A stretch of 64,000 nucleotides of DNA from Ramlibacter terrae (GTDB lineage Bacteria > Pseudomonadota > Gammaproteobacteria > Burkholderiales > Burkholderiaceae_C). Under the pieces are notes generated by a model that saw only the letters and a program-made list of their open reading frames with translations, had not been told where the DNA came from and did not search any database. The position numbers and the translations under genes were made by a program. The stretch is from contig CP053418.1 of NCBI GenBank assembly GCA_013127575.1, forward strand, positions 3,162,001 through 3,226,000, read 5' to 3'. Positions 2,827 to 46,321 of this stretch are shown in pieces; the first letter of the stretch is position 1, and every line of letters starts with the position of its first letter.

Positions 2827-3526
2827 GCGCGTAGTAGGTCAAGTCGCTGTTGCTGCGCGCCTGCAGCTTCGCCATCAACCGCGCGCGGTAGGTGCTGACG
2901 GTCTTGGCACTCAGCGACAGGTCGCTCGCGACCTCGGCCGCGCTCTTGCCCTGCGCCAGCTTGAGGAACACCTGCAGTTCGCGCGGCGAAGCTGTTCGTG
3001 CAGGCCGCGCGTCGGCGGCGTGATCACTGGGTGGCCAGCAGTTCGGCGACCGCCGGCGTGATGTACCGGCTGCCCTGCGCCACGCGGCGGATGGCGAGCA
3101 CGATCTCGCCGGGGTCGCAGGCCTTGTTGAGGTAGCCGCTGGCGCCGTTGCGGATCAGCGGCACGGCGTACTGCTGCTCCGGGTAGCCCGACAGGATCAG
3201 CACGCCCACGTGCGGCGCCTTGGCCTTGATCATCGTCAGCGCATCGATCCCGCTCTGGCCGGGCATGTCGAGGTCGAGCAGCAGGATGTCGAGGGCTTGC
3301 GTGCGCACCAGGTCGATGGCGTCGCGCCCGCATGCGGCCTCCGCCACCACCTGCATGCCGTCCTGCTCGTCGAGCCAGGCCCTCAGCGCGGTGCGCGTGA
3401 TCGGGTGGTCGTCGGCGATGCCGATGCGGATCGCGCGCAAGCGCAGCTGCTCCCTGGACGCGTCTTGCTCCAGCTCGGTGGCAGGACTGGTACGAGTTGC
3501 ACGGCGTACTCTTGCTTGCGGGCCAT
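2804..3526 (-). CDS. NarL/FixJ-type two-component response regulator
   Basis: Receiver plus LuxR-type DNA-binding domain. The receiver shows the acidic pair in IGIADDHPITRTAL, the phospho-acceptor Asp in DILLLDLDMPG and the conserved Lys in ASGYLNKACD. The C-terminal helix-turn-helix follows as SPRELQVFLKLAQGKS, then AKTVSTYRARLMAKL, ending KHQLLD. Two frame breaks, near 3491 and 3025, are each explained by a lost G in a CCAGG. Repair of the first makes the ATG at 3526 (MARKQEYAV) the start rather than the ATG at 3542. No histidine kinase lies next to it, so it is an orphan regulator here. The tail overlaps the 3' end of the LysR gene on the opposite strand. Confidence 0.85.
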
Positions 3527-3639
3527 GACGGCCCGTTGACAAAGTAAGCCGCTGCAGAGTCTGGCGTTGTAGTTGCGCTCCTACGCGGCCGTAGGAAGTC
3601 GCTTTAACACTTTGCCCTCCAATCGGCCGGGCCCGACCG

Positions 3640-20481: not shown

Positions 20482-20585
20482 CGCCCCCGGGCCGCCATAG
20501 GCTTTTCGCGGTAAAATCTTGTGTTGCGGCAAGGCCCCACGGCTTGCAGCCAACGAGCAAGTACTGTCACCCAGAACACACACCT

Positions 20586-21062
20586 ATGGCGATCGTTGTC
20601 AACAAACCCCTTCCAGAATTCGAAGCGAACGCCACGGGCGGCATCAAGGTCACCAACACGTCCCACCGGGGACAGATCGTGGTCCTGTACTTCTATCCGA
20701 AGGACAACACGCCCGGCTGCACCACCGAAGCCATGCAGTTCCGCGACAAGTACAAGGACTTCGTGAAGGCGGGCGCCGTTGTGTTCGGCGTCTCGCGCGA
20801 CAACATGAAGTCGCACGACGAGTTCAAGGCCAAGCTCGAACTGCCGTTCGAACTGATCGCCGACACCGAAGAAAAGATGTGCCACATGTTCGGCGTGGTC
20901 AAGAACAAGATCATGTACGGCAAGAAGGTCAAGGGCATCGAGCGCAGCACCTTCCTGGTGGGCGCCGACGGCATCCTCAAGCAGGAATGGCGCGGCCTGA
21001 AGGTGCCGGGCCACGTCGACGACGTGCTCAAGGCCGTCAAGCTGCTCAAGAAGGCCGCCTGA
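20586..21062 (+). CDS. bcp: Thiol peroxidase, Bcp/PrxQ type
   Basis: Peroxiredoxin reducing hydroperoxides. 158 residues with intact frame. FYPKDNTPGCTTEAMQFRDK carries the peroxidatic Cys near residue 45. The family's second Cys, normally five residues later, is absent (Ala-Met there), so it is a 1-Cys form unless Cys98 of EKMCHMFG takes part. C-terminal IERSTFLVGADGILKQEW. A TAAAAT hexamer at 20512-20517 may be its -10 box, giving a leader of roughly 65 bases. Cytoplasmic. Confidence 0.92.
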   Translation: MAIVVNKPLPEFEANATGGIKVTNTSHRGQIVVLYFYPKDNTPGCTTEAMQFRDKYKDFVKAGAVVFGVSRDNMKSHDEFKAKLELPFELIADTEEKMCHMFGVVKNKIMYGKKVKGIERSTFLVGADGILKQEWRGLKVPGHVDDVLKAVKLLKKAA

Positions 21063-33576: not shown

Positions 33577-34566
33577 TCAGTCCAGGCTGAAGCCCGAAGC
33601 GCGGATGATCGGTCCCCACTTCGCAGCGCCCTGCGTGGTCATGCGCGTGACTTCGTCCGGGCTGGTCGCCATCGGCTGCAGGCCCATGGAACGGAACTTC
33701 TCCTGCACGTCCGGCATGGCGAGCACCTGCCGCACGGCCTGGTTCCATTGCTGGATGGCCGCCGCGCTCGTCTTCGGCGGGGCGTACATCGCGTAGAAGC
33801 CCGTGCCCACGCCGTCGGGGAAGCCCAGCTCCACGAAGGTCGGCACTTCCGGCAGTTGCGGCATGCGGTTCTCGGACGAGACGGCCACGACGCGGATGCG
33901 CCCGCCACGGTGATGCTCGATCAGGTCGCCGGCGGAACTGATGCCGGCGGAGATCTGGCCGCCGGCCGGGTTCGTCACGATGGGCGCGGTGCCGAGGAAC
34001 GGCGCGTGCACCATGTCGACCCCGATGCTCTTGCCGATCAACAGGCCGAAGAAGTGGGGCGGGCTGCCCGGCGCCGGCGACCCGAAGCTGGCTTTCGTCG
34101 GATTGGCCTTGGCCCACTGCACGTACTCGGCGAAGGTCGCCACCTTGGGGTCGGAACCGACGGCGAGCGCGAACGGGAACTGCACCAGCAGCGAAACCGG
34201 CACGTAGTCCTTCGCCGGGTCATAGGTCAGCTTCTTGAAGACGATGGGGGCCGTCGTCGAGATGGTCTCGGGCGCGATCATCATCACCGAACCGTCGGCC
34301 GGTGCGTTCTTGATCGACTCCACCACGAGCCGCCCGCCGGCGCCGGGCTTGTTCTCGACGATCACCGTGCGCTTGAGGACGCCCTGCAGCTTGTCGGCCA
34401 TCAGGCGCGCAATGATGTCCGCCGAACCACCGGGCGGGAAGCCGACCAGCAACCGGGCGGTGGACTCGGTCTGCGCGGCGGCGAAGCCCGCGGAGGCGCA
34501 GAGCACGACGCCTGCGCACAGGCGCAGCACGCCGCGGCGGAAGAGGGAGGCGGAAGCAGAAGCCAT
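33577..34566 (-). CDS. Orphan TctC/Bug-type binding protein
   Basis: Periplasmic solute-binding protein, 329 residues, intact frame. Signal peptide LRLCAGVVLCASAGFAAAQT (residues about 13-32), then ARLLVGFPPGGSADIIARLM, VIVENKPGAGGRLVVESIK, SFGSPAPGSPPHFFGLLIG and GPIIRASGFSLD. No TctAB permease nearby. It is transcribed from its own promoter at 34604-34638, which carries the 16-base element shared with the monooxygenase and aldehyde dehydrogenase promoters. It probably captures the substrate of this catabolic region. Confidence 0.9.
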   Translation of the reverse strand: MASASASLFRRGVLRLCAGVVLCASAGFAAAQTESTARLLVGFPPGGSADIIARLMADKLQGVLKRTVIVENKPGAGGRLVVESIKNAPADGSVMMIAPETISTTAPIVFKKLTYDPAKDYVPVSLLVQFPFALAVGSDPKVATFAEYVQWAKANPTKASFGSPAPGSPPHFFGLLIGKSIGVDMVHAPFLGTAPIVTNPAGGQISAGISSAGDLIEHHRGGRIRVVAVSSENRMPQLPEVPTFVELGFPDGVGTGFYAMYAPPKTSAAAIQQWNQAVRQVLAMPDVQEKFRSMGLQPMATSPDEVTRMTTQGAAKWGPIIRASGFSLD

Positions 34567-34603
34567 GGCTGAATTTCTCTGGACGGTTCGGGGCTGGAAC
34601 CCC

Positions 34604-34638
34604 ATTCAAGCGCCAACTTGTTTTCTTGTCAACGATTT
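34604..34638 (-). promoter_or_regulatory. Regulated promoter 1 (tctC), with operator
   Basis: Read leftward: TTGACA (34627-34632), 17-base spacer, TTGAAT (34604-34609). The -35 is embedded in GTTGACAAGAAAACAA, matching the consensus GTTGACAANRAAACAA. About 31 bases of leader to the tctC ATG. The element overlaps the stop codon of the upstream monooxygenase gene. Confidence 0.75.
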
Positions 34639-36288
34639 AAACCCGTGCGCGCGCCGCGCACCAACGCGGTGAGCGCACCAACATCGGGAGGCAGGCGATC
34701 GCCGCGCCACGCGACGTGCTGGTCGGGCCGGGAGAGCAGCAGCGCGTGCCGGAACGCCGCCGGCTTCTCGCCCGGCGGGACGTCGACGATGCGCAGCGGC
34801 ATGCCGGCGTCGGCGGCGGCGCGCACCAGCGGCAAGACGTCCACCGCGGGATCGAAGCGCAGCAGCGCGTGGTCGTCCCCCATCGCGTCATAGAGCGAGC
34901 GGCCGTCCGCCATCCAGAAATGCGGCGTGCGGCACCCGGGCACGGTGGAAACCGTGAACTCGTCCATCCCGTAGGGCGGCTGCGCCTCGCCGTCGTAGGC
35001 GATCAGCGGCGAGCGGTCGTAGAAGTAGCCGAAGTTGAGCCCGCCGCAGCAGTACTGCTTCACGTTCAGCTCGTACAGGCGCTTGCCGAGCGCATCGCGC
35101 GTGGCCTGCCCTGCCGGCGTGTCGTCCTCGATGTCGGCGGGCACCTGCGTGCGGTGCCTGTTCATTGCCACCGCGTGGTCCATCGCGAAACGCGAGACCT
35201 GGTCGGTGATCGGTTGCCGCTCCGCCTCGTAGGCACCGAGCGCCGCTTCGGTCGCCCAACCCTTGATGCGGCCCGCCAGCAGCCACGCGAGGTCGGCGGC
35301 GTCCGCGATGCCTGCGTTCATGCCGTAGCCCGCCATCGGGATCCAGATGTGCGACGCGTCGCCGCAGATGAACACGCGGCGATCGCGGAAGCGGTCCGCC
35401 ACCAGCCTTCGGCCGAACCAGTCCTCTTTGGAAATCACCTCGTACTGGAAGTCGGGGCCGACGCCCAGCATCTGCCGGATTGCCCAGTCGCGGTCCACCG
35501 AGTCGAACTCCGGCTCGTCGTCGCGCAGGTAGTTGTGCAGCAGCCAGGTCTCGCGGCCGTCGATGGCGAAGACCACGCCGCTGCGGCGCGGATTCAGCAG
35601 GATCGCGCCCCACGCGGGACCGCTGCCCTCCACCGCGGGCAAGCCCGGCGCGCGGATGTAGGTGGACTGCACGCGTGCGACCACGTCGGTGCCCGGAACT
35701 TCGCACCGATGGCCTTGCGCACCGCCGAACGGCCGCCATCGCAACCGACCGGTAGTCGCACGCGAACCGCACCGTCTCCTGCGTGTCGAGGTCGGTGCCG
35801 GAGGCGTCGACGCCGCCGTCATCTTGCGTGAACCCGTCGATGCGCATCCGGTTGACGATAGTGATCCCTTCCATCGCTTCCGCATGCGCGAACAGGATCG
35901 GCTCCATGAACAGCTGGTTGATGCGGTGCGGCGGCTCGGGCGTCGGCCAGTCGGTGTCGGGCCCGCCGTGCGTGGTGAAGCGATGCTTGCGCGCAGGGAT
36001 CGGGATCCGCGCGATCTCGGTTCCCGCGAAGGTCGTGCGGTACACGACGTCGTGCGGAAAGTCCTCGGGCAGCCCCGCATCGCGCAGCTTCCCCGCCACG
36101 CCGAGCCGCCGGAAGATCTCCATCGACCGCGCCGAGATGTGGTTGCACTTCACGCTCGGCGGCTCGGCGCGCTGCCGCAATTCCGCCACCGTCACCTGCA
36201 CGCCGCGGCGCGCCGGGTCCATGGCGAGGGTGAGACCGACCGGTCCGGCGCCGACGATCAGCACACGGGTTCGCACCGTTGCACGCAA
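34629..36288 (-). CDS. FAD-dependent aromatic monooxygenase 1 (TfdB/MhpA type)
   Basis: Group A flavoprotein hydroxylase, about 553 residues. FAD-binding VLIVGAGPVGLTLAMDPARR near the N terminus, EPPSVKCNHISARSMEIFRR, then after repair DYLVGCDGG, and the second FAD motif ICGDASHIWIPMAGYGMNAG. Such enzymes hydroxylate phenolic rings with NAD(P)H and O2. Frame breaks near 35748 (CCGG for CCTGG) and 35700. The TTG at 36288 is favoured by an upstream GGAGG seven bases away; the start is not certain. The protein is a paralogue of the one at 46322. Divergent from the GGT-like gene. Confidence 0.85.
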
Positions 36289-36332
36289 GGCATATCCTCC
36301 AGCGAAGCCGCGCGACATGGCGGCGCCGGTGC

Positions 36333-36367
36333 ATTGGAGCCCCAGATTGTTTCTTTGTCAACGAGTT
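36333..36367 (-). promoter_or_regulatory. Regulated promoter 2 (monooxygenase 1), with operator
   Basis: Read leftward: TTGACA (36356-36361), 17-base spacer, TCCAAT (36333-36338). The -35 is embedded in GTTGACAAAGAAACAA, the shared element. It lies between the divergent monooxygenase and GGT-like genes, so a bound repressor could also affect the GGT-like gene. Confidence 0.75.
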
Positions 36368-36414
36368 GAGATATGATCTTCCGCATCGATGGTTCACCGA
36401 AGCGGGAGGCGTCC

Positions 36415-38008
36415 ATGGCCGTGGCGTTCGACTGGAAGTTTCCGTACCCCGCGCGCAAGCTGCCGGTGCTGGCGCGCAACCTCGCCGCCACCACGCAGCC
36501 GCTCGCGGCGCAGGCCGGCGCGCGGATGCTGCTGCAGGGCGGGAACGCGGTCGATGCCGCCGTCGCGACCGCGATCACGCTGACCGTGGTCGAACCGATC
36601 ATGAACGGCATCGGCGGCGACCTGTACGCCATGGTCTGGGACGGGGGCAAGCTGCACGGCCTGAACTCGACCGGCGAGTCGCCGGCCGCGTGGACGCCGG
36701 AACGTTTCTCGAACTACGCCAGCATGCCTATGAAAGGCTGGGACAGCGTCACCGTCCCGGGCGGCGTCGCCGGCTGGAAGGCGCTTTCGGACAAGTTCGG
36801 CAAGCTGCCCTTCGCCACCCTCTTCGAACCGGCGATCGCGTACGCCCGCGACGGCTTCCCTGGTGTCGCCTTTCGTGGCGAGCGTGTGGGAAGAGCTGGC
36901 GGGCATGGTGTCCGACCAGCCCGGCTTCGCGCAGGCCTTCCTGCGCGACGGCCGTCCGCCGGCACCCGGCCAGCTCTGGCGCAACCCGGAGCAGGCCGAC
37001 ACCTTGCAGAGCATCGCCGAGAGCGGCACCGACTCTTTCTACCGCGGTGCGCTGGCCGAGGCCATCGTCGACTTCGCCCGCCGCACCGGCGGCTGCATGG
37101 TGCTCGACGACCTCGCGCGGCACGCGGTGGAATGGGTGGAGCCGATCGGGCAGGACTACCGCGGCACCACGCTGCACGAGATCCCGCCCAACGGCCAGGG
37201 CATCGGCGCACTGATGGCGCTGGGCATCCTCGAACAGTTCGACGTGCGGGCGATGAAGCTCGACAGCCCCGAGGCGTACCACGTCATGGTCGAAGCCATC
37301 AAGCTGGCCTTCGCGGACCTCTACGAGCACGTCGGGGACCCGCGCGGCATGCGCCTGTCCACGGCCGACCTTCTCTCCCCGAGTACCTGAAGCAGCGCGC
37401 CCGCCTGATCGACATGCGCCATGCCGCCACGCCGCGCCCCGGTGCGCCGGCGCAGCGCGGCACGGTCTACCTCACGACGGCCGATGCCTCCGGGATGATG
37501 GTGTCGCTGATCCAGTCGAACTACTGGGCCTTCGGCTCGGGCCTGGTGGTGCCGGGAACCGGCATCTCGCTGCACAATCGCGGCGCCAACTTTTCACTGG
37601 TGCTGGGCACGTCAACGCGGTCGGGCCGCGCAGGAAGCCGCTGCACACGATCATCCCCGGCTTCGTCACGCAGGCCGGCGCGCCGGTGATGTCGTTCGGC
37701 GTCATGGGCGGCTCCATGCAGGCGCAAGGCCACCTGCAGATGATGAGCCGACTCGTCGACTTCGGCCAGAACCCGCAGGCGATGAGCGATGCACCGCGCT
37801 TCTGGTGGAGGCGCAGAGCGACATGCTCAGCGTGGAGGAGCACCTGCCGGGCGCGGTGCTCGAAGGCCTGCGGCAGCGCGGCCACAAGGTCGAAGTCGCG
37901 CCCACCGGGCACCTGAAGTTCGGCGCCACCCAGATCATCCACAAGCTGGCGGACGGCTACCTCGGCGTATCGGACAGCCGGCGCGACGGGCAGGCCGCGG
38001 GCTTCTAG
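36415..38008 (+). CDS. Gamma-glutamyltransferase-like enzyme (YwrD type, cytoplasmic)
   Basis: N-terminal nucleophile hydrolase of the gamma-glutamyltransferase family, about 531 residues. GARMLLQGGNAVDAAVATAI and EPIMNGIGGDLYAMVWDG open the large subunit. The nucleophile Thr is the T of RGTVYLTTADASGMMVS; Val-Tyr follows where classical enzymes have Thr-His. Then GANFSLVLG and MSFGVMGGSMQAQGHLQMM. There is no signal peptide, unlike periplasmic GGT. The start at 36415 has GGGAGG six bases upstream. Four frame breaks, near 36862, 37375, 37612 and 37802; the first and last restore as CCTGG. It may remove or transfer gamma-glutamyl groups on pathway intermediates (inference). Confidence 0.85.
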
Positions 38009-38556
38009 GCGCCCTCGCCCTTGAGGTCCTGGCTGCGCTTCATCAGCTTGTCCAAGATGATGTCGAGCAACTGGTGCTCGTGGTCGTCCAGCGCCTCGAG
38101 GAACCAGGCCTCGCGGGCCGCCATCTCGGGCAGCATTTCCGAGCACATCTTCTCGCCCTTGGGCGCGAGCGACAGGATCAGCTTGCGGCCGTCGGTGGGA
38201 TCGTCGATGGGGTCGATCATGCCGAGGTCGACCAGGCGGCGCTGCGCCCGCGAGACGCGCGCCTTGTCCATGCTGGTGCGCTCGACGACCTCGTTGAAGA
38301 CGAGGTCCCCGTAGGAGTAGAGCGCCATCAGGATGCGCCACTCCGGGATCTGCAGGTTGAAGCGCTGTTCGAACAGCTTGCCGATCGACTGCGAGACGCG
38401 GTTCGCCACCACGGAGAGCTTGTACGGGATGAAGTCGTCGAGCTTGCCCATCGGGCCCAGCGTGGGCCGGCGCACCGTCACGCGCTTGGGCGCGGCCGTC
38501 GTCGCGCGCTTCTTCGCCGCCGGACGCTTCTTGACTGGGGTCGAACTCGTTGCCAT
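38005..38556 (-). CDS. MarR-family transcriptional regulator, probable regulator of the catabolic region
   Basis: 183 residues, intact frame. A basic, Ala/Lys-rich leader (KKRPAAKKRATTAAPKRVTV) precedes the winged helix: QRFNLQIPEWRILMALYSYG, VVERTSMDKARVSRAQRRLV and the wing DPIDDPTDGRKLILSLAPKG. The Lys-rich leader is unusual for the family and may add non-specific DNA contact. Convergent with the GGT-like gene (4-base overlap) and divergent from the aldehyde dehydrogenase operon. The shared palindromic element at 38616-38636 lies upstream of both, as expected for an autoregulated repressor. Confidence 0.87.
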   Translation of the reverse strand: MATSSTPVKKRPAAKKRATTAAPKRVTVRRPTLGPMGKLDDFIPYKLSVVANRVSQSIGKLFEQRFNLQIPEWRILMALYSYGDLVFNEVVERTSMDKARVSRAQRRLVDLGMIDPIDDPTDGRKLILSLAPKGEKMCSEMLPEMAAREAWFLEALDDHEHQLLDIILDKLMKRSQDLKGEGA

Positions 38557-38615
38557 CTTCTCTCCGCCGGGAGTGCGATGCTAACAGTGCCGCACCACGG
38601 CCCGAACACGTTGGC

Positions 38616-38650
38616 TTTTTGTTGACAACGAAACAAGTTATTCGCAGAAT
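38616..38650 (+). promoter_or_regulatory. Regulated promoter 3 (aldehyde dehydrogenase operon), with operator
   Basis: TTGACA (38622-38627), 17-base spacer, CAGAAT (38645-38650), with the -35 inside GTTGACAACGAAACAA. The centre is near-palindromic (TTTTGTTG A CAACGAAA). Transcription would begin at or next to the ATG at 38657, so the operon mRNA may be leaderless; no Shine-Dalgarno sequence is visible. Confidence 0.75.
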
Positions 38651-38656
38651 GGGCCC

Positions 38657-40088
38657 ATGTCCTACCCCTCCCTCAGCCTGTACATGGACGGCCGCTGGAT
38701 CGCGCGCACCGATGCAGGCACCCTGCCCGTCCTGAACCCCGCCGACGGGTCGGTGCTGGGGCAGTTGCCGATCGCCGGGCCGGCCGAGATCGAGGCGGCC
38801 ACGGCGGCGGCGGCGCGCGGTTTCGGGACCTGGTCGCGCACCCTGCCGCTGGACCGCTTTCGCGTGCTCGCACGCGCCAGTGCCCTGATGCGCGAACGCG
38901 CGCCGGCCATCGCCCGCATCCTCACGCTGGAACAAGGCAAGCCGCTGGTGGAGGCCCTGCGCGAGGTGACCCTCTCCGCCGACATCATCGACTTCGGCGG
39001 AAGAAGCGAAGCGGCTGGCCGACCGCGGCGTGCCGCCGCGCTTGCCCAACGTGCTGAGCCAGACCGTGCAGCGGGTACCGGTGGGTCCGGTGGCGGCCTT
39101 CACGCCCCGGAACTTCCCGGCCAACCTGCCTTCGCGCAAGCTCGGTGGCGCGCTCGCCGCCGGCTGCAGCGTGGTGATCAAGCCGGCCGAGGAGACGCCG
39201 GGCACCTGCATGGAGATCGTCCGCGCGTTCGAGGACGCCGGCCTTCCTGCGGGCGTGCTGAACATGGTCTGCGGCAATCCGGCGCAGATCTCGGAGACTC
39301 TGATCGCCGACCGCCGCATCGCCAAGGTTTCCTTCACCGGCTCCACCGCCGTCGGCCGCATGCTCGGCGAGCAGGCAGCGCGCCACCTGAAGCGCTACAC
39401 CGCCGAACTCGGCGGCCATGCCCCCGTGATCGTCTGTGCCGACGCCGATCCGGAAGCCATCGCCGCGCTGAGCGTCACGGCCAAGTACCGGGGCGCCGGC
39501 GGTCTGCGCGTCGCCGATCCGCTTCCTGGTGCACGCCAGCCTCTACGAACGCTTTCGGGATGCGTTCGTGGCCGGGACCATCGCGCTCAAGTCCGGTGAC
39601 GGACGCGAGGACGGCGTGCAGGTCGGTCCCCTGATCGCCGAACGCCGTATCGAGGAGATGCAGCGCTTCGTCGACGATGCCGTCGCCCACGGCGCGCGCC
39701 TGCTGTGCGGCGGCCAGCGGCTGGACCGGCCCGGATGCTTCTACGCACCCACGGTGCTGGAGGGGCGCCCGCCGCGGCGCGCGTGCAGCGTGAAGAACCC
39801 TTCGGCCCGATCGCCCTGCTCGACACCTTCGAAGATCTCGACGATGCCATCGCCCGGGCCAATGCCCTGCCCTACGGACTGGCGGCTTATGCATTCACCC
39901 GCGACCTCGCGACCTCGCACAAGCTCTCGCGCGGCCTGCGCGCCGGCATGGTCGGCATCAACCACTTCGGCGTGTCGCAGCCGGAGACGCCGTTCGGCGG
40001 CGTGGGCGACAGCGGCAGCGGTTCCGAAAGCGGCCTCGAGGGGCTGCTCGGCTACACCGAGGTCAAGTTCGTGAGCGTGGCCGCATGA
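38657..40088 (+). CDS. NAD(P)-dependent aldehyde dehydrogenase
   Basis: About 477 residues. SLYMDGRWIARTDAG and PVLNPADGSVLGQLPIAGPA at the N terminus, VAAFTPRNFPANLP (Arg where most members have Trp), SVVIKPAEETPGTCMEIVR, SFTGSTAVGRMLGEQAA and ELGGHAPVIV (catalytic Glu). The catalytic Cys sits in VCASPIRFLV at about 39505, which reads only after repair of a break just before it (expected GQVCAS). Other breaks near 39000 and 39770. The C-terminal SGSGSESGLEGLLGYTEVK is typical. First gene of a seven-gene operon. Probably oxidises an aldehyde made by the downstream aminotransferases. Confidence 0.88.
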
Positions 40089-40783
40089 GGGACGACGTCC
40101 TGCGCCACGGCGCCACCACGCCGCGCGGCCTGCTCCTGGACTTCGGCGCCGTGATCAGCGTGTCGCTCTTCGAGCGGCACCGCGACACCGAGGAAACGCT
40201 GGGCCTGCCGCGCGACTCGCTGCGCTGGATGGGACCGCTGGCACCGGAAACCGACGCGCTCTGGCAGGCCATGCAGCGTGACGAGATCAGCGAGCGCGAG
40301 TACTGGGCGCGGCGGGCGCGCGAGCTGGGGGAAGCCGTCGGCGAACCCGGCTGGGACATGCTGGCGATGCTCACGCGCGTGCGGCACACCGACCCCAACG
40401 CGGTGGTGCGGCCGGGCATGAAGCGCCTGATCCGCCGGGCGCACGCGCTCGGCATCCGCGTTTCGATCCTGTCGAACGAGCTCGAACTGTTCTACGGCAA
40501 GGAGTTCCTCGCGCGCATGGACGTGCTGCGCGACATCGACGGCATCGTCGATGCCAGCCACACCAAGATCCTGAAACCGGATCCGCGCGCCTACGCCATG
40601 GCCATCGACATGATGCGGATGAAGCCGCACGAGATCCTGTTCGTCGACGACCAGTTCCGCAACATCGCCGGCGGCGTCAAGGCCGGCCTGCAGGTGCATT
40701 ACTTCGACCTGCGCGACGTGCCCGGCCAGCTGGCCGCGATCGAAGCGCGCCTCGACCCCAGCGACAAAGGACCCCTGACATGA
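40085..40783 (+). CDS. HAD-superfamily hydrolase
   Basis: 232 residues, intact frame, HAD subfamily I with an alpha-helical cap. Motif I is LLLDFGAVIS: the nucleophile Asp is kept but the second Asp of the phosphatase DxD is Gly. Motif II ILSNE, motif III Lys in ILKPDPRAYAMAI, motif IV ILFVDDQFRNI. Cytoplasmic. Coupled by ATGA overlaps to the genes on both sides. Substrate unknown; the DFG form argues for weak or altered phosphatase activity. Confidence 0.85.
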   Translation: MRDDVLRHGATTPRGLLLDFGAVISVSLFERHRDTEETLGLPRDSLRWMGPLAPETDALWQAMQRDEISEREYWARRARELGEAVGEPGWDMLAMLTRVRHTDPNAVVRPGMKRLIRRAHALGIRVSILSNELELFYGKEFLARMDVLRDIDGIVDASHTKILKPDPRAYAMAIDMMRMKPHEILFVDDQFRNIAGGVKAGLQVHYFDLRDVPGQLAAIEARLDPSDKGPLT

Positions 40784-42150
40784 CCAAGATGACCGTGGAG
40801 CAGCTCAAGGCCGCCAATGCGCGCTCCCTCTGGCACCCGATGGCGCACCCGAAGGCGATGCGCGACACGCCGCCGGACATCATCGTGCGCGGCGAAGGCA
40901 GCTGGATCTGGGACGTCGATGGGCACAAGATGATCGACGGCGTCGGCGGCCTGTGGAGCGCGAACCTCGGCTTCGGCCGGCGCGAAGTGCGCGATGCCAT
41001 CGTCGAACAGCTCGACGAGCTGGCGTTCTACAACATCTTCCGCGGCACCACCCACTCCCGCGCGATCGAGCTCTCGGACCGGCTGGTACGCCTGATGGCG
41101 CAGGACGGCGTCGGCTCGGTCTTCTTCAGCAACGGCGGTTCGGACGCAGTGGAGAGCGCGCTCAAGCTGGCGCGCCAGTACTGGAAGATCCGGGGCCGGG
41201 CCGACCGCAGCAAGTTCATCGCGCTGCGCCGGGGCTACCACGGCGTGCACTTCGGCGGCATGAGCGTCAACGGCAACACCAACTTCCGCCGCAACTACGA
41301 GCCGCTGCTGCCCGGCTGCTTCCACGTCGACACGCCGTGGCTGTACCGCAACCCGTACACCGAAGACCCGGTGCGGCTGGGAGAGATCTGCGCCGAGCTG
41401 CTGGAGCGCGAGATCGTGTTCCGGGGCCGGACACCGTCGCCGCCTTCATCGCCGAGCCGGTGCAGGGCGCGGGCGGGGTCATCGTGCCGCCGCCGAACTA
41501 CTGGCCCCTGGTGCGCAGGATCTGCGACAAGTACGGCGTGCTGCTGATCGCCGACGAGGTTGTCACCGGCTTCGGCCGCACCGGCCACCTGTTCGGCACG
41601 CGCCTGTGGGACGTGAAGGCGGACATGTGGTGCCCTGGCCAAGGGCATCTCCTCGGGTTATGTGCCCCCGGGCGCCACCGCGATCTCGGCGAAGATGGGC
41701 GAGGTGTTCTCCGCCAGCGACTCCGCGTTCGCCGCGGTTTCGCACGGCTACACCTACAGCGCGCACCCGGTGGCGGCCGCCGCGGCACTGGCAACACTGG
41801 ACGTGCTGGAGAAGGAAGACATCCTCGGCAACGTGCGCACGCAGGGGACCTACCTGCTCGAGCGCCTGCAGGCGCTCGGCCAGCGTTCGCCGCTGATCGG
41901 CGACGTGCGCGGCACCGGCCTGATGGTCGCCATCGAAATGGTCGCCGACAAGAAGACCAAGGCGGCGTTCGGCCGCGGCGCCAAGGAAGTGACCGAAGTG
42001 GCCCGCGAGGCCTACCGCCTCGGCGCGATGGTGCGCACCTCGGGACCGAACATCATCCTGTCGCCGGCACTGACCATCAGCCGCGCCGAGATCGACGTGC
42101 TGTGCGACGCGCTCGACGCCGCCTTCGCCAAGGTGGGCGGCGGGAAATGA
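40780..42150 (+). CDS. Class III aminotransferase 1 (omega-amino acid type)
   Basis: PLP-dependent transaminase, about 456 residues, acting on terminal amino groups. LWHPMAHPKAM, the loop WDVDGHKMIDGVGGLWSANL, FSNGGSDAVESALKLARQYW, RRGYHGVHFGGMSVNG, PLP-phosphate Asp in LLIADEVVTGFGRTG and the Schiff-base Lys in LAKGISSGYVPPGA. Frame breaks near 41430 and 41638 (the second an extra C at CCTGG). Resembles beta-alanine/pyruvate and related transaminases. Coupled to the next gene by ATGA. Confidence 0.87.
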
Positions 42151-43524
42151 TCGGCACGGACCCGCGCCGCACGCAGGCGTTGCTGGACCACGAGCTGGCC
42201 GCGTTCGCGCGGCTGCACCCGAAGTCGCGCGCCAGCTTCTCGCAGGGACAGGATCATTACCTGTACGGCGCGCCCTCGCACTGGATGCGTCGCTGGGCGG
42301 GCGGCTTCCCGCTGTCGGTGCAGGCGGCGCACGGCGCGCGCCTGACTTGCGTGGACGGCATCGACTACGTCGACTTCTGCCTCGGCGACACCGGCGGCAT
42401 GTGCGGGCACGGCCACCCGGCGATCGCACGCGCCGTCGCCGAGCAGCTTTCGCGCGGGGCGACGCTGATGCTGCCGACGCCCGATGCGGCATGGGTCGGC
42501 GAGGAGCTGGCCGGGCGCTTCGGCCTGCCCTACTGGGGCTTCACCACGTCCGCCAGCGACGCGAACCGCGCCGTGGTGCGCATGGCGCGCATGGTGACGG
42601 GCCGCGAGAAGGTGCTGGTCTTCAACGGCTGCTACCACGGGTCCGTCGAGGAAGCGCACGTCGCGCTGGCCGAAGGCGGCGGCATGGAGATGCGCAACGG
42701 CATCCACGCGAATGCGGTCGACCATGCCCGAGTCTCCGGGGTGATCGAGTTCAACGACGTGGACGCGCTCGAGGCGGCGCTGGCGCCGGGCGACGTCGCC
42801 TGCGTGCTGGCCGAGCCCTTCATGACCAACTACGGGATGATCACGCCCGCGCCCGGCTTTCTGGACGCGCTGCGCGAGATCACACGCCGCACCGGCACGT
42901 TGCTGGTGCTGGACGAAACGCACACCTTCTCGTCCGGCCCGGGCGGCTACACCGGGCGGCACGGCTTGCAGCCGGACTTCTTCGTGGTCGGCAAGGCGGT
43001 CGGCGGGGGTGTCCCGGTCGGCCTTTATGGCGTGAGCGCTGAAGTGGCCGAACGCATGTGGCGCGTCGTGCCCAAGGTCAAGCCGACCGAAGTCCGCCAG
43101 AGCGCGCACGGGTTTCGGCGGCACGCTCGCCGGCAGCGCGCTGCAGGTGGCGGCGGTGCGCGTGGTGCTCGCCGAGGTGCTCACCGATGCGGCTTTCGCA
43201 CGGATGATCGCGCTGGCCGAAGACCGGCGCCGCGCGCGCGGCAAGTCATCGCCTCGCATGGCCTGCCCCGGGTACGTGGAGCAGGTCGGCGCCCGCGTCG
43301 AGACGATGTACGCGCCGGAAGCACCGCACAACGCAGGCGACGTGCGGCGCGGCCGCGACGGCGTGCTCGAGTCGCTGCTGCACGTCTACTTCATGAACCG
43401 CGGCGTGCTGATCACGCCCTTCCACAGCATGCTGCTGATGTGCCCCGCGACGCAGCCGGGCGATACGGAACGCTATCTGGCCGTGCTCGAAGCCTTCTGC
43501 GGCGAGCTGGCCGCGTCGCGATGA
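42147..43524 (+). CDS. Class III aminotransferase 2 (glutamate-1-semialdehyde-like)
   Basis: PLP enzyme related to HemL, about 460 residues. VDGIDYVDFCLGDTGGMCGH, FTTSASDANRAVVRMARMV, VFNGCYHGSVEEAHVALAEG, Asp in LLVLDETHTFSSGPGGYTG and the PLP lysine in VVGKAVGGGVPVGLYG. Frame breaks near 43110 and 43225. Its place in a catabolic operon makes a role in haem synthesis unlikely. A second aminotransferase next to the first suggests two amino-transfer or isomerisation steps. Coupled to neighbours by ATGA at each end. Confidence 0.84.
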
Positions 43525-44309
43525 CGCCCTTCCGCCTCGACGGCAAGGCGGCGCTGGTCACCGGCGCCGGTCGCGGGATCGGCGCCGCGATCGCAACCCG
43601 GCTGGCCGAAGCCGGCGCGCAGGTGTTGCTGGCGAACCGGTCCATGGGCGTCGCGCAGGAACTCGCCGCCTCGCTGGCTCTCCGCGGGCTCGCCGCACGG
43701 GCGGCTCCTTTCGACGCGACGGAAGACGGCTGCCGCGCGGCCGTCGGCGCCACGCTGCAAGCGTTCGGCCGCCTGGACATCCTCGTGCACAACGCCGGCG
43801 GCTGCCCGTGGTCGCCGCTGGAGACGCTCACCGGCGACGTGCTGGAACAGACCCTCGCCCTGAACCTCAAGAGCTGCTTCTGGCTCACGCAGGCGGCGCT
43901 GCCGGCGCTGCGGCGCGACGGCGGACGGATCGTGATCACTTCGTCGGTGACGGGGCCGCGCGTGGCCATGCGCGACGCCACCCACTACGCCGCGGCGAAG
44001 GCGGGCGTCAACGGCTTCATCCGTTCGGCCGCGCTGGAACTCGCGCCGCATCGCATCACCGTCAACGGCGTCGAGCCCGGCTTCGTGGCCAAGGACCGCG
44101 GGCGACTGAGCGAGCCGGCGCGCAAGGAACGCCTCGTGCGCTACATCCCGCTGGGCACCGCGGGCGCACCGGACGACATTGCGTTCGCGATGCTGTACTT
44201 CGCCAGCGACCAGGCGCGATGGGTCACGGGACAGACGATCGTGGTCGACGGCGGCATGACCCTGCCCGAGTCCGGCCGGGTGATGGAGGAAACATGGGAC
44301 GACGCATGA
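43521..44309 (+). CDS. Short-chain dehydrogenase/reductase
   Basis: 262 residues, intact frame. Cofactor motif ALVTGAGRGIGAAIATRLAE near residues 11-30, HNAGG, catalytic Ser in IVITSSVTG and YAAAKAGVNGFIRSAALELA (Tyr and Lys), C-terminal RITVNGVEPGFVAKDRGRL and TGQTIVVDGGMTLPES. NAD(P)-dependent; substrate unknown. In the coupled catabolic operon. Confidence 0.9.
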   Translation: MTPFRLDGKAALVTGAGRGIGAAIATRLAEAGAQVLLANRSMGVAQELAASLALRGLAARAAPFDATEDGCRAAVGATLQAFGRLDILVHNAGGCPWSPLETLTGDVLEQTLALNLKSCFWLTQAALPALRRDGGRIVITSSVTGPRVAMRDATHYAAAKAGVNGFIRSAALELAPHRITVNGVEPGFVAKDRGRLSEPARKERLVRYIPLGTAGAPDDIAFAMLYFASDQARWVTGQTIVVDGGMTLPESGRVMEETWDDA

Positions 44310-45546
44310 ACGAAGCGCACGGCATCCTGCTGGTGGGCACGGTCGATACCAAGGCCGACGAGCTGCTGTACATGAAGGGCTGCATCGAGGCGGGCGGCGG
44401 CCACGCCATCGTCATGGATGTCGGCGTGCTGGGCGAGCCGGCGTTCCCGCCCGACGTCACCAAGCACGACGTCGCGCGCGCCGCCGGCACCGACATCGAC
44501 GCGATCGCCGCGCTGGGCGACGAGAACGCGGCCATGACGAAGATGGCCGAAGGCGCCGTGCGCGTCGCGCGCGACCTGCATGCGCAAGGGCGCGTGCAGG
44601 GCGTCCTTGCTCTGGGTGGCACCATGGGCACCGACCCGGCGCTCGACGTCACAGCGGCGCTGCCACTCGGATTGCCCAAGTTCGTGGTGTCCACGGTCGC
44701 CTTCTCGCACCTGATCCCGCCGGAGCGGCTGGCGCCCGACCTGATGATGATCCTGTGGGCCGGCGGTCTCTACGGCCTGAACGGCATCTGCCGCTCGATC
44801 TGGGGCAGGCGGCGGGCGCGGTGCTCGGCGCCTGCCGCACCGTCGAACAACCGTCCAGCGCCCGCCCGGTGGTGGCGATGACCTCGCTGGGCAAGAGCTG
44901 CCTCGGCTACATGGTGACCCTCAAGCCGGAACTCGAACGCAGAGGCTACGAGGTGGCGGTATTCCACTGCACCGGCATGGGCGGACGGGCCATGGAATCG
45001 CTTGCGGCCCGGGGGCGGTTCGTCGCCGTGCTGGACCTGTGCCTGCAGGAAGTCGGCAACGAAACCCACGGTTCCATCGTCACCTCGGGCGCCGACCGGC
45101 TCGAGGCCGCCGGCAGGCGCGGCATTCCGCAGATCGTCGCGCCGGGCGGGCTCGACATGATCGACATGCAGTCATGGCGGCCCGTGCCGGCCGTGTACGC
45201 GGAGCGGCCGCATCACGCGCACAACCGGCTGATCGCGTCGGTGCTGATGAACGCCGAGGAACGCCGCGCCGCCGCGTGCGCCGTGACCGGCAAGCTCGCC
45301 AAGGCCACCGGACCCGTGGCGTTCGTGCTGCCCACGGGCGGCATCGAAGCGTGGGACCGGCCCGGCGAACCCCTGAACGATCCGGCCGGCCTGGCGGCCT
45401 TCTGCAGCGAGATGCGCAGCACGATGCCGCCGTCTGTGCGCTTCGAGGAGATCGACGCCCACATCAACGACGCCGCCTTCGGCGACGCCGTGCTGCGGAT
45501 CTTCGACGACTGGGTGGCGGCCGGCCACATTCCGCCGGGGGCGTGA
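44294..45546 (+). CDS. Tm-1-like ATP-binding (UPF0261) protein
   Basis: About 417 residues, the full two-part family length. ILLVGTVDTKADELLYMKGC and GGGHAIVMDVGVLG start the N-terminal part; VLALGGTMGTDPALDVTAAL and KFVVSTVAFSHLIPPE follow; the second part has VVAMTSLGKSCLGYMVTLKP, VFHCTGMGGRAMESLAARG and FVLPTGGIEAWDRPGEPLND. The family includes the tomato Tm-1 resistance protein; the bacterial function is not known. One frame break near 44803 (CTGG for CCTGG). The ATG at 44294 has GGAGG four bases upstream; the ATG at 44306 overlaps the previous stop. Confidence 0.85.
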
Positions 45547-46315
45547 TGCGCGATCGGATCGTCCTCGTGACGGGCGCGTCGGGCGGCATCGGCGCCGCCG
45601 TGGTGGAGCGCCGGCGGCCGAAGGCGCGATCGTGCTCGCGTTCGACCGCGATGCCGCGCGGCTGGCCGCGCTGTGTTCCCGCACCGGCGCCGCGGCTGTT
45701 GTCGGCGACGTGACCGTACAGCAGGACGTCGACCGTGCCATGGCCGCGACCACTGCGCGAGGCGGTCTCCACACCGGTCAACGCGGCGGGCGTCGTGGCG
45801 GCGGACGAACCCTCCGAGGTCGAGGATGCAACGTGGGAGCGCATGCTGGCCGTCAACCTGACCGGCACGATGCGCATGTGCCGCGGCGCGATCCCGTTGC
45901 TGCGCGCGGCTGGCGGCGGCAGCATCGTGAACGTCGCCTCGGTCGCCGCGTTCAACGCCACGCCGGGCAGCGCCAGCTATGCTCCCAGCAAGGCTGGCGT
46001 GGTGGCATACACACCCGAGGGATCGCGCTGACGCATGGCGGCGACGGGATCCGCGCGAATTGCGTGTGCCCCGGCTGGACACGCACGCCGATGGCCGACG
46101 CCGAAATGGACGAGGCCGCGGCGCGCGGCGGCAGCACGCGTGAGCAGGAATACGCCGCCGTCGCCGGGCGCCTTGCACTGGGCCGCCTGGCGGAGGCCGC
46201 GGAGATCGCGGCCTGCGTGCGTTTCCTCGCCAGCGACGACGCATCGTTCGTGACCGGCGCCACCCTCGTGGCGGACGGCGGCGGACGCATCCCGGCGAGT
46301 GCGCGCGCGCACTGA
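45546..46315 (+). CDS. Short-chain dehydrogenase/reductase
   Basis: About 256 residues. VLVTGASGGIGAAVVER cofactor motif, NAAGV, Ser in IVNVASVAAF, YAPSKAGVVAYT (catalytic Tyr and Lys), GDGIRANCVCPGWTRTPM and SFVTGATLVADGGGRIPA. Three frame breaks, near 45612 and 45775 (both lost bases in CCTGG) and 46020. Last gene of the rightward operon; its ATG overlaps the stop of the Tm-1-like gene. It converges on the second monooxygenase. Confidence 0.82.
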
Positions 46316-46321
46316 GGCTGG

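Follow-up and report, generated by a model that had tools for sequence, protein, structure and literature searches.

A conserved element fused to the -35 box of three promoters predicts a local MarR regulon in Ramlibacter terrae

A 64,000-nucleotide stretch of the Ramlibacter terrae genome (hereafter the window) contains three copies of a short element, each of which includes the -35 hexamer TTGACA of a predicted promoter, in front of tctC, of a FAD-dependent monooxygenase gene and of an operon that starts with an aldehyde dehydrogenase (ALDH) gene. With a probability of roughly 0.85, the MarR-family repressor encoded in the same cluster (38005-38556) has this element as its operator; the repressor would cover the -35 box and be released by a compound of the pathway. 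The prediction of a local MarR regulon, new in itself but of a well-known type of circuit, is well supported by comparison of sequences, namely by the sites themselves, their rarity, their conservation, their fixed promoter geometry and their co-occurrence with the MarR gene.

Three exact sites in one gene cluster

The 5.28-Mb genome has three exact copies of the 16-mer GTTGACAANNAAACAA, all inside a stretch of about 4 kb in this cluster, and GTTGACAANRAAACAA is matched exactly at 34618-34633 (-), 36347-36362 (-) and 38621-38636 (+). A first-pass annotation of the window had described a 16-base element shared by three promoters with 14 of 16 positions identical. The three exact sites and their degree of identity were reproduced, but the length has to be corrected, as the conserved unit is the 18-bp sequence TYGTTGACAANNAAACRA, which starts two bases earlier. 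The use of TTGACA as -35 box, the spacers of 17 bases and the three -10 boxes were found as had been described. The sites and promoter elements are as follows.

34618..34635 (-): site W1, TCGTTGACAAGAAAACAA, exact match; -35 box TTGACA at 34632-34627
34604..34609 (-): predicted -10 box TTGAAT for tctC; spacer of 17 bases, at which the best -10-like hexamer was found when spacers of 15-19 were compared
36347..36364 (-): site W2, TCGTTGACAAAGAAACAA, exact match; between the monooxygenase gene (-) and ggt (+)
36333..36338 (-): predicted -10 box TCCAAT for the monooxygenase gene; spacer of 17 bases, weak box with a score of 1.1
38619..38636 (+): site W3, TTGTTGACAACGAAACAA, exact match; between marR (-) and the ALDH gene (+); -35 box TTGACA at 38622-38627
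38645..38650 (+): predicted -10 box CAGAAT for the ALDH gene; spacer of 17 bases

Site W2 also fronts the divergent gamma-glutamyltranspeptidase gene ggt (+), a target absent from the first-pass annotation, and the element in the locus L037 of a relative (see below) likewise adjoins ggt. The ATG of ALDH follows the predicted -10 box after only six bases (window 38645-38657), so that a leaderless transcript is possible for this gene; in the related locus L027 this ATG is placed further downstream.

Rarity of the element

A chance origin of the three sites is ruled out by genome-wide counts together with a scoring matrix derived independently of the window. At up to three mismatches to the 16-mer the window holds four matches, a number reached by none of 100 dinucleotide shuffles (mean 0.31, largest 3). 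With N at positions 9 and 10, the 16-mer has three exact matches in the whole genome, to which a tolerance of up to two mismatches adds only three places, all with two mismatches, while the 18-mer has three zero-mismatch copies, all in this cluster, the other five places having two mismatches. Occurrence at random frequency, on which the first-pass annotation had let its proposal hinge, is therefore not what the genome displays. The confinement of the sites to one cluster is as a local regulon requires; three of the relatives (G429, G340 and G840) have further good sites on other contigs of their fragmented assemblies. In 398 other sampled genomes of the family the 16-mer is matched exactly seven times in six genomes, and three of these matches lie in the orthologous cluster, two in G174 and one in G340.

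The matrix was trained on the sites upstream of marR in eight relatives. It ranks the three window sites (scores 35.2, 29.4 and 25.1) as the top three in 64 kb, followed by a next score of 18.4, and the highest score that it gives on one strand of 10 Mb of first-order random sequence is 18.3. A candidate near 20592 (TTTGTTGACAACGAT), with one mismatch to the inner palindrome, scores 11.4, lies in or beside the open reading frame 20544-21062 and was not counted. A weaker pattern of the outer arms with free centre has nine further one-mismatch places in the genome; as this is about as many as for the reversed control, it is of no use for finding targets. A limited search of the open-access literature did not find this element.

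Conservation in relatives with a close MarR

With the window MarR as query, five loci were recovered from named genomes, and five close and three distant ones (39-41% identity) from 399 sampled genomes of the family, while a search of 60 genomes of the genus gave two with the MarR besides the window's own, one with the gene split over two contigs. Merging of duplicates left nine close orthologues with 63-77% identity to the window MarR in the alignment (L007, L008=L028, L009, L010, L011=L037, L027, L029, L030 and L038), where L011 and L037, 100% identical, are the locus of Ramlibacter sp. WS9 (genome G418). At the level of the order (399 genomes, mostly of other families) no MarR was found at E 1e-30 except the window's own, and a plasmid search gave four records, each below 60% identity.

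The element is present at the marR locus in all nine close orthologues with at most one mismatch to the 16-mer, and in eight of them it is located upstream of and divergent from marR, as is W3 in the window. The ninth is L037, whose copy is flanked by tctC and ggt at a distance of 1.7 kb from marR. When the 300-bp regions preceding marR in eight relatives were searched blindly, with the window excluded, for the words of 12 to 18 bases that they share best, GTTGACAACGAAAC and overlapping words came out. No element was found at up to three mismatches in the three distant MarR loci. Conservation upstream of orthologous genes, a check that the first-pass annotation had proposed, was thus observed.

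The element is also retained in front of genes other than marR. In L037 it precedes, with no mismatch to the 18-mer, a tctC that is 67.7% identical to the window tctC; in G429 it stands ahead of an ALDH gene 70% identical to that of L027, on a different contig from marR; in G840 it is found with one mismatch at a HAD gene on another contig; and a second copy in G174 (one mismatch to the 18-mer) precedes an ABC transporter operon. As the assemblies of the relatives are fragmented, a location on another contig implies no measured distance. In G107 and G340 the element (one mismatch) lies ahead of a DUF1329 gene, and in G107 DUF1302 and MMPL genes come after it. The same site was seen between a second ALDH gene and the DUF1329 gene in the loci L078 (1673-8952) and L079 (4264-6933), with DUF1302 and MMPL transporter genes then following in L078. 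These neighbours hint at a hydrophobic substrate. An ALDH gene was not found in L007 (2100-2500) and L010 (7540-7945), where by eye a remnant of about 20 codons resembling the ALDH N-terminus follows the element, before the HAD and aminotransferase genes. For the monooxygenase only weak matches in two distant loci were obtained, and its promoter consequently has no orthologue on which conservation can be tested.

With respect to the origin of the copies, L037 has tctC and ggt side by side with a single element between them, while in the window (34566-36415) the monooxygenase gene is found between them together with two elements, as if the site had been duplicated when this gene was inserted. 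This arrangement, from which W1 and W2 could derive, and the presence of three copies within 4 kb are what can be said for recent duplicates or a small mobile repeat devoid of regulatory meaning. This is an extremely improbable explanation, as no similarity is apparent by eye between the sequences that flank W1, W2 and W3, and orthologous copies front orthologous genes in other genera; besides, duplication of a single site would not contradict a function as operator.

Promoter geometry and symmetry of the site

Sixteen promoter-oriented copies, among them three near-identical pairs (L008/L009, L029/L030 and L078/L079), were scored for -10 boxes with position weights for the hexamer, and in all 16 the best -10-like hexamer among spacers of 15-19 bases was at 17. 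Across these copies the -10 columns 26, 29 and 30 stand out, though they were not used for the choice of sites. Conserved are also two bases before TTGACA and ten after it, while the flanks are not, and conservation on both sides of TTGACA means that the element is more than a -35 box. That the shared sequence would be no more than a strong -35 box followed by an A-rich spacer, a promoter rather than an operator, agrees with TTGACA being the sigma-70 consensus and with the fixed spacing to the -10 box, but is very unlikely, as the bases on either side are conserved together with the hexamer, the 18-mer is restricted to three places in 5.28 Mb, and a copy that faces marR in L038 (L038b; 3514-3531, +) keeps both arms although TTGCTA replaces TTGACA. 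The retention of the arms upon loss of the hexamer indicates that the putative operator is separable from the -35 box, and L038b is possibly the operator of marR itself.

The site contains inverted repeats, TYGTT-N8-AACRA, the arms of which mirror each other with one degenerate base included, and TTNGTTGNCAACNAA, which is matched with zero to two mismatches among the copies listed. The palindromic centre that had been noted in W3 was confirmed, as TTTGTTGACAACGAA fits TTNGTTGNCAACNAA without mismatch. The inner dyad TTYGTTG-A-CAACRAA is intact in W3 and in the majority of the relatives; W1, W2, L037, L029 and L030 carry degraded forms of it. In L007 a tandem copy 44 bases upstream of the main site (L007b; 2535-2550, -) has the inner palindrome intact and the right arm broken, and the sites ahead of DUF1329 genes keep the inner dyad with a changed right arm. 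L038b favours the outer dyad, while L007b and the DUF1329 sites favour the inner; we lean towards the outer dyad as the preferred one, without claiming it.

Co-occurrence of the element and MarR

The proposal of a local MarR regulon, made in the first-pass annotation, is supported, and it is co-occurrence that ties the element to the MarR gene. The exact 18-mer TYGTTGACAANNAAACRA is present in six of the 399 family genomes, namely in all five with a close MarR and in one of the 394 without (G064), while the reversed pattern has no exact match in the same genomes. By hand from these counts, the probability that six random genomes include all five with the MarR is about 7e-11, a value that is too small because of relatedness (G107 and G340 share a genus). 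The single copy in G064 is probably due to chance, as near-matches to the reversed pattern are abundant there too (13 places for the 18-mer at up to two mismatches versus 17 for the reversed control).

The genome G329 separates regulator and enzymes. It has an ALDH-aminotransferase-UPF0261 cluster like that of the window (ALDH 63% identity, aminotransferase 64-77% in pieces) and a ggt gene, together with a MarR of only 43% identity, and no element was found upstream of its ALDH gene (best 5 mismatches in 2.4 kb) nor an exact 18-mer in its whole genome (best 1 mismatch). The element therefore goes with the close MarR and not with the enzymes. This bears on the alternative that the element is bound by an activator or by some other regulator encoded elsewhere, with marR as a bystander. 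Binding of MarR to the element is a prediction, enzyme genes and marR are nearly always found together, and the recognition helix of the G329 MarR is very similar while the site is absent, all of which would fit such a regulator. Nevertheless we consider it unlikely, as the element tracks this particular MarR across the sampled genomes, is missing from the enzyme cluster of G329 and is placed directly upstream of marR in eight of nine relatives. An activator site on top of a perfect -35 box would also be unusual.

Several observations weigh against the element being the operator of this MarR. The recognition-helix stretch of G329 is in fact almost identical to that of the window MarR, yet the genome is without an exact site. 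The nine loci were fetched with the MarR as query, whose presence there is thus by construction, so that the independent count is the five of five versus one of 394 genomes, and of these five genomes two (G107 and G340) belong to one genus. Orthologues of the HAD hydrolase with at least 63% identity were found in four genomes, all of which also have the MarR (299 genomes searched, 16 matched; the remaining 12 are 40-53% identical and look like paralogues), so that only G329 separates the regulator from the enzyme cluster. L037 has no element between marR and its divergent gene, and the one-mismatch site at the HAD gene of G840 points, in its best orientation, away from the gene. With respect to the promoters, the -10 boxes are weak, and three copies outside the 16 scored ones (L007b, L038b and one in L081) are by eye without the -35/17/-10 arrangement.

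The gene cluster of the window

The genes of the cluster are listed below.

33577..34566 (-): tctC, tripartite tricarboxylate transporter receptor; Pfam TctC E 1.2e-50 on the open reading frame 33577-34605, ATG probably at 34566
34629..36318 (-): FAD-dependent monooxygenase in two overlapping frames, 34888-36318 and 34629-36080; Pfam FAD_binding_3 E 2.4e-23 on the first
36415..38008 (+): ggt, gamma-glutamyltranspeptidase, in several frames; Pfam G_glu_transpept E 8.3e-60, start probably at 36415
38005..38556 (-): marR, predicted regulator of the element; Pfam MarR_2 E 3.4e-12, co-occurrence with the element
38657..40085 (+): ALDH, first gene of the operon, in several frames; Pfam Aldedh E 3.4e-19, tblastn with the ALDH of L027 and L028
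40085..40783 (+): HAD-family hydrolase; Pfam Hydrolase E 1.4e-14
40780..46321 (+): remainder of the operon (class III aminotransferase, PRK07046-type transaminase, SDR, UPF0261, SDR), several genes spanning more than one frame; homology, tblastn of L027 and L028 proteins

The product of marR has a winged helix-turn-helix MarR domain (PF12802, 46.8 bits with a cut-off of 27; PF01047, 29.7 bits with a cut-off of 24.6), and the operon running from ALDH through HAD hydrolase, class III aminotransferase, PRK07046-type transaminase, SDR and UPF0261 to the last SDR diverges from it. The start of tctC at 34566, from which the translation begins MASASASLF, fits better than 34605 of the longest open reading frame, in agreement with the first-pass annotation. 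Compared with relatives, the monooxygenase, ggt, ALDH, transaminase, UPF0261 and SDR genes (window 34629-46321) are read in two or more frames, and the alignment of window ggt with that of L037 falls into five tblastn pieces (63-86% identity). The source genome is one contig of 5,277,406 bases with a stated completeness of 63.72, and the split frames probably result from numerous small indels in the assembly. The nearest solved relatives of the two class III transaminases are 5LH9 and 5YKR; transaminases, ALDH and ggt together suggest an amine-type substrate.

Proposed regulation and significance

From the arrangement of sites and genes we infer binding by MarR, repression and release by a ligand as follows. 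A MarR dimer would bind the 18-bp site TYGTTGACAANNAAACRA and keep sigma-70 RNA polymerase off the promoters of tctC, of monooxygenase/ggt and of the ALDH-HAD-aminotransferase operon. Exclusion of the polymerase would be expected since TTGACA, the -35 hexamer, falls within the putative operator, and with their weak -10 boxes the promoters should depend on the -35 contact. A compound of the encoded pathway, probably an amine, an aldehyde or a derived acid, would release MarR and so turn on uptake and catabolism together, and marR itself may be controlled via the divergent site W3.

A further idea, entertained tentatively and on the doubtful side, is that operator and promoter travel together in the 18-bp unit as a portable cassette, the half-sites TYGTT, AACGA and AACRA of which form two overlapping dyads. 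One MarR could then bind in two registers, on the -35 box or shifted into the spacer, which would give graded repression, and the cassette would have stayed with the pathway genes as these were scattered, lost or newly recruited across genera.

With respect to applicability, a highly specific operator and a set of target genes are now predicted for an uncharacterised MarR subfamily, and the ligand, hence the substrate of the transaminase/ALDH/UPF0261/GGT cluster, becomes directly searchable with a simple reporter. The element would also be an example of a -35-fused operator retained while the downstream genes change.

Comparison with known systems

Local MarR-family repressors, HucR among them, are described as encoded divergently from the operon that they control, with repression and release by a pathway compound as the usual mode of the family (PMC5487221). 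The system predicted here resembles these HucR-type systems in its winged helix-turn-helix MarR, divergent gene and putative palindromic promoter site, with interference with the polymerase as the expected mode (PMC5487221); it differs in that several promoters share the site and in that the -35 hexamer lies inside it. The nearest solved relative of the window MarR by sequence is PDB 2FA5, a MarR/EmrR-type regulator (phmmer E 6.2e-24, residues 37-173). HmgS is a MarR regulon for tyrosine degradation predicted by comparative genomics (PMC5343134). Like the present regulon it is small and was deduced from sites conserved close to the genes, but it serves another pathway and is found in Alteromonadales and Pseudoalteromonadales.

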